From: Sulfuricurvum sp.
GTDB lineage: Bacteria > Campylobacterota > Campylobacteria > Campylobacterales > Sulfurimonadaceae
Assembly: GCA_024637295.1 (NCBI GenBank)
Contig: JAGXFL010000002.1
Span: 62,001-126,000 of the forward strand
Length of the DNA stretch: 64,000 bases
Direction: 5' to 3'
The position numbers and the translations under genes are program-made. The notes beneath the pieces are model-generated. The model made no database searches and was not told the origin of the DNA. It was given only the letters and a program-made list of their open reading frames with translations. Below are positions 55,414 to 57,621 of this stretch, piece after piece (the first letter of the stretch is position 1; the number at the start of each line of letters is the position of its first letter).

Positions 55414-55617
55414 TTAGTTCATTTCAACTTTAATTAGTAAATCATTGCCTTCTTCGACAACCGCAAAACGGTGCTTACGGCAAAATGTTTCATTCATCTC
55501 TTCTGCCCAATCCTGAGCCTCTACTAATGCATCGTCTTTATTATCAAATGCTTTGATTGTCGGCATTCCGCTACGCTTAAAACACCCACATTCTTTTTCG
55601 ATACGTACATTGAACAT
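55414..55617 (-). CDS. Small conserved cysteine-containing protein
   Basis: 67 residues with CGCF near the N-terminus (10-13), a second Cys in ETFCRKHRF, and an alternating strand-helix-strand pattern ending in VVEEGNDLLIKVEM. A GGGAGAA ribosome binding site precedes the ATG. I do not recognise the family for certain; it looks like a conserved Campylobacterota hypothetical. It is convergent with argF. Confidence 0.65.
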   Translation of the reverse strand: MFNVRIEKECGCFKRSGMPTIKAFDNKDDALVEAQDWAEEMNETFCRKHRFAVVEEGNDLLIKVEMN

Positions 55618-55758
55618 AATGAGTTCTCCCTAATGTTTTTCGCAGTATAGTGATCAAAAATTAAAAAAATGGCACAAAAGATAAGCGAATGGAAACTAAA
55701 AGTTAACTTTAATTTTTAGTATTGATACATTATCAGGAGATATTATGCTCTATGTGGG

Positions 55759-55973
55759 TATAATTCGCTCAAATTTTTGGGTACCTTCGTAAGTCTTTAT
55801 AAAAATAAAGTTTTACAAAGGTACCTTCCATGGTAGAGATCCAGATTTATGATCTCTGAAAATTTTCTGCCCAATTAGAGGGTCAAGATACAACGTCATA
55901 GCCGCACAGCATAGTAACATGGGCTTTTTAGGGACCATCTTTAATAAGATTAAGATGCGTAGTCCCTTTTTTT
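55759..55973 (+). ncRNA. Structured leader RNA ending in an intrinsic terminator, before a DEAD-box helicase
   Basis: TATAAT (55759-55764) gives a transcript start near 55771. Hairpin 1 (55780-55825) stacks GGTACCTT/AAGGTACC, GTAA/TTAC and CTTTAT/ATAAAG. Hairpin 2 is AGAGATC (55835-55841) with GATCTCT (55851-55857). A longer pairing joins GCCCA (55869-55873) with TGGGC (55920-55924). A terminator follows: AGGGAC (55930-55935)/GTCCCT (55962-55967) with inner ATCTT/AAGAT and seven T (55967-55973). The helicase ATG is at 56005. It is either a cis-acting attenuator leader or a separate small RNA of about 200 nt. Confidence 0.6.
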
Positions 55974-56004
55974 GCCGGCATGGCGTATTAATTAAAGGTA
56001 ATTT

Positions 56005-57621
56005 ATGAGTACAATAGAAATCGACGAAAATGCAGCAAATCTTGGAACATTTGCAGACTTTGGTCTTCGCAGCGAAATTATGCAAAGCATCACACATGCT
56101 GGATTTACAGTTCCAAGCCCTATCCAATCAATGGTCATTCCTGTTATTATGCAAGGTCGTGACGTTGTAGGACAAGCACATACAGGTACGGGTAAAACAG
56201 CGGCATTTGGTTTGCCGGCATTGAACAAAATGCATTTAAAAGGTGGAATCGAAGTTCTAATCGTTACACCAACACGTGAACTTGCGAATCAAGTAAGTGA
56301 CGAAATTTTCAAATACGGTAAACACCTTGGTGTCCGTACCGTGACTATTTATGGCGGAAGTTCTTATAACCGTCAAATTGATTTGATCGAGCGTGGCGCA
56401 CAAGTTATTATCGCTACACCAGGACGTTTGTTGGATATGCTTAGCCGCAATATGCTTAAAGGTTTTGCTCCATCAACGGTTATTTTGGATGAAGCGGATG
56501 AGATGTTGGATATGGGCTTCTTGGATGATATCAATGAAATCTTCAGCTACCTTCCAACAGAGCGTCAAACATTGCTCTTCTCAGCAACAATGCCAATGCC
56601 TATTAAAAAGCTTGCAGAGCGTATCTTAGTTGATCCATTCTTTGCATCAATCACACGCGAAGAAACAACTAATACAGATATTACACAGCAGTACTATGTT
56701 ATCGAAGAATCTGAGCGTGATGATGCGATTATCCGTTTGATGGATGCTGAAGATGCAAAGAAAACGGTTGTTTTCTGCCGTACGAAAAAAGAGGTTGATC
56801 GTCTTTCGAATGTCCTTTCAGCTGCCGGTTATTCGGCTAAAGGTCTTCATGGAGACATGGAGCAGCGTCAGCGTGAAAGCGTTATCAAGGGTGTAAAATC
56901 CGATGCATTTGATGTATTGATCGCGACAGACGTTGCAGCACGCGGTTTGCATATCGATGATATCACACACGTCTTTAACTACCATATTCCTTTTGATCCT
57001 GAGAGTTATGTACACCGTATTGGACGTACAGGACGTGCGGGTAAAAAAGGGGTTGCGATTACTTTGGTAACACCGATTGAATTCAAAGAGCTTCAGCGTA
57101 TTAAATCTAAAGTTGGTACAACAATGGAGCATGCATACATTCCAAGCAAGCTTGATGTTAAAGAAGCCCAAATCAACCGCCTTGTTGCAGAGATCGAAAA
57201 ACAGCATGTAAATGACATCGCACACAAAGTATTGGATGTTCTAAAGCAGGATTTTGACCAAGAGCAGATTGCTTATAAATTAATCTCTTTACTTATGGAG
57301 CGTAATACGGTTCAAGGACCAAACAATATTGGTATTTCTGCAGAGCGCATGGAAAAAATCCTTAGCAATCTTGCAAACAGTCATGACCGTGGCGGTAATC
57401 GTGGCGGAGGATACCGTGGTAATCGTAGTGGTGGTGGATACCGTGGTAACAATGACCGCAATGCTAGTGGCGGTGATCGTGGCGGCAACAGCGGCGGCGG
57501 ATACCGTGGTAACAATGATCGTAATGCAAGCAGCGGTGATCGCAGCGGTGCAGATCGCGGAGACCGTTCACGCAGTTTCAGCGGCCAAAACCGTTCAGCT
57601 AGCAGTAAGCCTAGAAGCTAA
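56005..57621 (+). CDS. DEAD-box ATP-dependent RNA helicase with RGG-type tail
   Basis: 538 residues. Q-motif region, motif I AHTGTGKTAAFGLP, PTRELA, DEAD box in ILDEADEMLDMGF, SATMP, and the C-terminal motifs ATDVAARG and HRIGRTGRAG are complete. A linker region (about 375-460) is followed by a Gly/Arg/Asn-rich tail with repeated GGGYRGN units (about 462-538), likely an RNA-binding tail. It resembles RhlE/CsdA-type enzymes that unwind RNA in ribosome assembly and decay, often cold-induced. The long structured leader suggests post-initiation control. Its end overlaps the convergent HIT gene by 27 bases. Confidence 0.93.
   Translation: MSTIEIDENAANLGTFADFGLRSEIMQSITHAGFTVPSPIQSMVIPVIMQGRDVVGQAHTGTGKTAAFGLPALNKMHLKGGIEVLIVTPTRELANQVSDEIFKYGKHLGVRTVTIYGGSSYNRQIDLIERGAQVIIATPGRLLDMLSRNMLKGFAPSTVILDEADEMLDMGFLDDINEIFSYLPTERQTLLFSATMPMPIKKLAERILVDPFFASITREETTNTDITQQYYVIEESERDDAIIRLMDAEDAKKTVVFCRTKKEVDRLSNVLSAAGYSAKGLHGDMEQRQRESVIKGVKSDAFDVLIATDVAARGLHIDDITHVFNYHIPFDPESYVHRIGRTGRAGKKGVAITLVTPIEFKELQRIKSKVGTTMEHAYIPSKLDVKEAQINRLVAEIEKQHVNDIAHKVLDVLKQDFDQEQIAYKLISLLMERNTVQGPNNIGISAERMEKILSNLANSHDRGGNRGGGYRGNRSGGGYRGNNDRNASGGDRGGNSGGGYRGNNDRNASSGDRSGADRGDRSRSFSGQNRSASSKPRS
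57403..57560 (+). repeat. Imperfect repeats encoding the RGG-type helicase tail
   Basis: GGATACCGTGGTAA recurs at about 57409, 57438 and 57498, each time followed by AAT-rich codons (NNDRN). The units vary at wobble positions, so this is coding repetition and not a simple tandem duplication. Confidence 0.7.

Follow-up and report, generated by a model that had tools for sequence, protein, structure and literature searches.

RNase E lowers its own synthesis through its own leader (rne5 type). To our knowledge, little is known about how the helicase level is set in bacteria with an RNase J/DEAD-box degradosome. The RNase J/RhpA degradosome of H. pylori exerts feedback on the 5' UTR of rnj, and no induction of RhpA was observed in the cold (PMC5874925). 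The cyanobacterial CrhR, a well-studied autoregulated DEAD-box helicase, is controlled partly after transcription start, in a temperature- and redox-linked manner and without a known homologous leader (PMC3485376). The segment analyzed in the current study lies upstream of a DEAD-box helicase gene in Sulfuricurvum and, like the RNase E leader and the rnj 5' UTR (PMC5874925), forms the structured leader of an mRNA that encodes a core RNA-decay enzyme. Unlike them, it belongs to another gene, is unrelated in sequence, and has one half derived from a repeat as well as a terminator-like hairpin; both known leaders are thought to sense the activity of the encoded enzyme, which for the present locus is only proposed, by analogy. 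It shares with CrhR the type of protein encoded, but not a link to temperature, for which no support was obtained here.

The window (the whole stretch of Sulfuricurvum sp. DNA that was analyzed, 64,000 nt) contains the features listed in Table 1. The original prediction had described a -10 element, two hairpins and a terminator hairpin with seven T, ending 31 nt before the helicase ATG, and all of these were found at the same positions. It had also held that neither a gene nor a known RNA family fits this interval. In agreement, no conserved ORF with a plausible start was detected between the -10 box and the ATG; Rfam gave no match to the leader at the gathering threshold in the window, and no match to positions 55650-56050 even at E<=5. 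A conserved short ORF starting from AACATGGGC was considered and rejected, being open in some genomes and carrying stops or indels in others. The terminator-like hairpin was absent from the list of a simple terminator scan, as its loop exceeds the length that the scan permits. The best-scoring model for the helicase was that of the degradosome helicase CshA, with a score below the cut-off, and DEAD and Helicase_C domains are present; the protein is assigned here to the same type as H. pylori RhpA.

Table 1. Positions of the leader elements and the helicase gene in the window.
Feature	Position	Strand	Basis
-10 box TATAAT; box and following (T)TCG..CAAATTT kept across the leaders of the genus	55759..55764	+	read directly
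Predicted transcription start, just 5' of conserved CAAATTTTTGGG	~55770-55772	+	
Hairpin P1, GGGUACCUU / AAGGUACCU plus inner stems, near the RNA 5' end; outer arms 55779-55787 and 55818-55826 (direct reading)	55779..55826	+	alignment, pairing probability
Hairpin P2, AGAGAUC / GAUCUCU; arms 55835-55841 and 55851-55857	55835..55857	+	fold, class 1 alignment
Degenerate copy of the dispersed GTAG-tagged REP-like repeat, leader 3' half; aligned part 55866-55927, outer palindrome arm inferred to about 55990	55865..55990	+	profile match, alignment, reciprocal covariance model matches
Hairpin P3, GCCC / GGGU, equivalent of the first hairpin of the dispersed repeat	55869..55883	+	comparison with repeat
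Long-range helix P4, ACGUCAU (55893-55899) with AUGGCGU (55980-55986); ends 7 nt 5' of the Shine-Dalgarno sequence	55893..55986	+	alignment, folding
Terminator-like hairpin plus T7; GGGAC/CATCTT (55931-55941) against AAGATG (55952-55957) and GTCCC (55962-55966), then TTTTTTT (55967-55973)	55930..55973	+	-12.7 kcal/mol; compensatory changes; missing from class 2
Shine-Dalgarno (SD) sequence AAAGG	55994..55998	+	read directly; kept in relatives
DEAD-box RNA helicase, CshA/RhpA type, 538 aa, RG-rich tail	56005..57621	+	ORF, domain and model searches

A DNA search of 100 relatives found the segment restricted to the genus of the window, plus one marginal match. Leaders were extracted between a divergent 67-aa gene and the helicase gene, and were present in about 40 of the 41 Sulfuricurvum genomes, that is, in every one with an assembled helicase 5' end. 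They fall into two types, class 1 (about 217–236 nt, excluding the insertion in leader L027), which includes the window, and class 2 (about 154–165 nt). The covariance-model search of related genomes that the original prediction had suggested, carried out with a model of class 1 (R1), gave matches in 39 of the 41 genomes, a tally in which the weakest matches (G014 and G015) are not the leader itself, the leaders of these two genomes being confirmed by direct reading. The two negative genomes were G037, which carries a diverged class 2-like leader, and G006, in which the helicase is truncated at a contig end. Class 1 leaders contain long blocks that are invariant across genomes (mean column identity 77%), with compensatory changes. 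Class 2 retains P1, a P4-like pairing, and a hairpin at the position matching the class 1 terminator-like hairpin, but the T-run is absent. The sequences suggest that class 2 may have arisen when a segment between two AAGC repeats was deleted.

The helicase protein tree and the leader class disagree, each class occurring in two places (L005-L041, L125, L279); recombination, repeated loss and tree error are all possibilities. The leader L027 (genome G039) carries an insertion of ~110 nt inside P2, which includes AGCGTAGC as well as a long palindrome, CACTAAAACG..CGTTTTAGTG; the insertion may represent a further repeat family that landed in this leader. The 67-aa ORF (55414-55617, reverse strand), which has a CGCFKRS motif and no Pfam or NCBIfam match, is conserved and divergent to the helicase gene throughout the genus. 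A perfect palindrome, AAAGTTAACTTT (55699-55710), lies in a genus-conserved block between the divergent promoters and is a possible operator; its class 2 counterpart, AAAGGTTATCTTTA, is less symmetric.

The sequence from 55765 to 55975 folds at -54.6 kcal/mol (z = -3.64), with none of 200 shuffles as good; together with the conserved -10 box, this bears out the claim of a structured helicase-mRNA leader with its own promoter. When 20 class 1 leaders were aligned, the paired cells amounted to 88.6%, compared with 86.4 +/- 0.3% in shuffles (0 of 500 as high) and at most 57.6% in slid-structure controls. The same leaders had 19 double-change cells (7.2 expected), so that the stems upstream of the helicase are conserved in relatives with compensating changes, as had been predicted. 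P1 and P4 are the best-preserved helices in class 1 (96% and 98%). For P1, 95.8% of cells were paired, with double changes in the inner stem, and its pairing probability was 0.95. For P4, 98.3% of cells were paired with mostly one-sided changes, and the covariation support for this helix alone is modest; its predicted probability was 0.98 in the window sequence and 0.7–0.99 in 19 of the 20 class 1 leaders, where it could be located. A subgroup form of P2, AGAGAG/CUCUCU, is displaced by one base in the alignment. A closing helix, AAAUUUU/AAAAUUU, is invariant in class 1 and is not claimed, its pairing probability being low and its pairing poor in L037 and L038. Reverse-strand R1 matches at the leader position are a product of the GGUACC palindrome in P1.

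The long-range pairing of the original prediction, CCAUG (55828-55832) with CAUGG (55918-55922), is predicted only for RNA ending at the T-run; in the predicted fold of the read-through RNA, P4 forms in its place. Since P4 encloses the terminator-like hairpin, it exists only in read-through RNA. This bears on the choice, left open by the original prediction, between a read-through leader and a small RNA. An independent trans-acting sRNA of ~200 nt, running from the 55759 promoter to the T-run, with the helicase made only by leak-through, would agree with the presence of a promoter, a compact structured RNA, a hairpin plus T7, and a T-run retained in nearly all class 1 genomes. It is nevertheless quite unlikely, as no other conserved promoter is visible 5' of the helicase gene, and the predicted P4 requires positions past the T-run, so that the function would not be complete within the terminated transcript. 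A cis leader is favored over a free sRNA because P4 spans the T-run, class 2 genomes lack the T-run, and the structure is invariably linked to the helicase gene, every strong match of the whole element in the R1 search lying 5' of that gene. Between the promoter and the start codon of this one gene there is a conserved, covarying structure, and its action in cis, as the 5' untranslated leader of the helicase mRNA, is well supported. The leader probably sets the amount of helicase.

Intrinsic-terminator attenuators likewise have a hairpin and a T-run between promoter and gene, but at this locus the pair is confined to class 1 and has no conserved antiterminator. The latter was sought in the class 1 leaders, where the predicted partners of the terminator 5' arm vary among relatives, so the terminator/antiterminator pairing to be compared in homologs did not emerge. 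At least 6 T in 8 are present in every class 1 leader except those of the L023/L024 lineage, while stem strength varies between -12.7 and -6.3 kcal/mol and is weak in several relatives. The predicted terminator hairpin is present with its T7 in the window, but its T-run is missing from class 2 and from L023/L024. These losses, and the weak stems (-6.3 kcal/mol), rule out attenuation as the core function common to the leaders.

R1 also matched other loci, with E values of about 1e-10 to 1e-5, and direct reading of these revealed a dispersed, intergenic, GTAG-tagged repeat of 76 bp with the consensus TTCTGCCTCG-AAGAGGCAAGCTTTAGTGCCATAGCGGCTAGCGTAG-palindrome-CGTT. The possibility that these matches are extra copies of the leader was rejected, their orientation relative to genes being mixed: according to simple-ORF gene calls, 34 placements were in the same orientation, 24 opposite, 10 convergent and 8 divergent. 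The occurrence of both orientations between genes points to a repeat and not to a family of leaders. Of the 24 genomes searched, 22 contain 1–47 copies each and two (G068 and G075) contain none; the loci (L116-L127, L130-L159, L168-L197) come from Sulfurimonadaceae and other families of Campylobacterota, with some copies in tandem (e.g. L131, L159). Among 40 copies, covariation in the repeat hairpins was very strong, with 126 double-change cells compared with 38.8 in shuffles (score 0.501 versus 0.188). The repeat copies had no Rfam match, the tmRNA and isrG matches falling elsewhere in those loci, and the plasmid and phage collections contained no match to the repeat.

As far as the published descriptions of GTAG-tagged REPs (Di Nocera et al. 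2013, PMC3733652) and REPINs (PMC3116915) extend, the repeat shares with them a dispersed, intergenic location, single or tandem units, and GTAG beside a palindrome with covarying arms. It differs from what is described there by a conserved 45-nt 5' domain containing two further hairpins (76 bp in total), by its absence from the flanks of the Y1 transposase genes examined, and by having one copy, that of the helicase leader, which is degenerate and fixed in the whole genus. A role of RAYT as the mover of the repeat was not supported: Y1_Tnp is missing from several repeat-bearing genomes (e.g. G010, G016, G021), and no repeat lies within about 1.5 kb of the 8 Y1 loci checked. No earlier description was found in the literature searched, the comparison with the consensus of PMC3733652 being by description; the family looks new, and fits the GTAG-tagged REP class of that paper.

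Alignments and reciprocal model matches showed that the 3' half of the leader descends from this repeat, an origin that the original prediction had missed. A repeat-only profile had a single match in the 64-kb window, at exactly 55866-55927 (E = 7.3e-4). The best alignment of the window leader with repeat copies scored 39 (maximum 28 in 200 shuffles), and the leaders L013, L019 and L010 reached 52. A model built from repeats alone (R2) had 14 of its 16 matches on leaders, and R1 and R2 matched each other's elements reciprocally. For the class 1 leaders L014, L016 and L026 the repeat alignment was near or inside the shuffle range, and the homology of class 2 to the repeat consists mainly of position and the GGCAAGCGTA block, with pairwise scores mostly near shuffles. 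The copy in the window carries a degenerate tag, ATAG. The leader appears to have incorporated a mobile-type repeat, and we infer an order of events in which an ancestral leader with P1 received the repeat in the genus, followed by the T-run hairpin within the class 1 palindrome loop.

A rival explanation is a leader without a regulatory role, in which P1 merely stabilizes the mRNA and the repeat half with the T-run hairpin is a decaying insertion. The repeats do occur in many intergenic places and in both orientations, a large part of the repeat half and the T-run hairpin are lacking in class 2, and T-run and stem strength are variable; but the long invariant blocks and compensatory changes are unlike decay, and this explanation is possible but doubtful. 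The same blocks (AACAUGGGCUUUUUAGG and others), which are long and look unpaired in class 1, might instead bind a metabolite. A ligand-sensing riboswitch of this kind is very unlikely, as the invariant 3' blocks largely derive from the repeat rather than from an aptamer and are deleted in class 2, the element is associated with a single gene, and there is no Rfam similarity at E<=5.

In other Sulfurimonadaceae genera, the helicase ortholog is usually preceded by a -10 box (a TATAAT-like box at the equivalent position in most of them) and then by a different structured leader. The z value was below -2.9 for 6 of 17 such leaders, whereas the stability of L042, L048, L050 and L053 was no better than that of shuffles. 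In most of the 17, a long stem opens ~20 nt or less from the predicted start and closes shortly 5' of the SD, and 5'-proximal closing stems analogous to P1 are found in most other genera. Sulfurimonas leaders contain GGGGAAGAUGC / GUAUCAUCUCC stems with compensating changes, as judged by eye. Since different structured leaders precede the helicase ortholog across genera, what recurs in the family is the association of a structured leader with this gene, rather than one particular sequence. Leaders of the Sulfurospirillum type (L059, L061, L208, L211) have ACCUAC../GUAGGUUUUU hairpins (ACCUGC/GCAGGU in L061) with a T-run, possibly an independent attenuator before the same gene.

The best explanation of the whole, with a probability of about 0.5, is a cis leader with a repeat-derived half, 5'-end protection, partial attenuation, and feedback by helicase and RNase J. 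The last three are suggested by the anatomy of the leader and by the feedback of the H. pylori degradosome on rnj (PMC5874925). P1, near the RNA 5' end, would shield the RNA against 5'-to-3' decay by RNase J; the T-run hairpin would halt part of the transcripts, and helicase would be made only from read-through RNA, with P4 folded around that hairpin. By analogy, the helicase, alone or with the degradosome RNase J, may unwind or destroy the leader, resulting in less helicase. It counts against this feedback that CrhR apparently does not act directly on the decay of its own mRNA (PMC3485376). In a further reading, which is unlikely, a REP-like repeat captured in the Sulfuricurvum ancestor became a degradosome feedback sensor, the action of helicase and RNase J on the repeat-derived domain choosing between termination and helicase synthesis, and the same enzymes may also target other transcribed copies. 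Many DEAD-box helicases are encoded by cold genes, and the original prediction had raised temperature sensing. An RNA thermometer or cold-sensing leader, for which crhR would be a precedent (PMC3485376), is most improbable here, as the SD lies outside every conserved helix and the H. pylori homolog RhpA is not cold-induced (PMC5874925).

These results provide a defined, testable helicase leader in free-living Campylobacterota. The repeat shows strong covariation over several families, without an Rfam entry or a description in the literature searched, and its copy in the helicase leader is a fairly clear case of a dispersed palindromic repeat that turned into part of a conserved mRNA leader.
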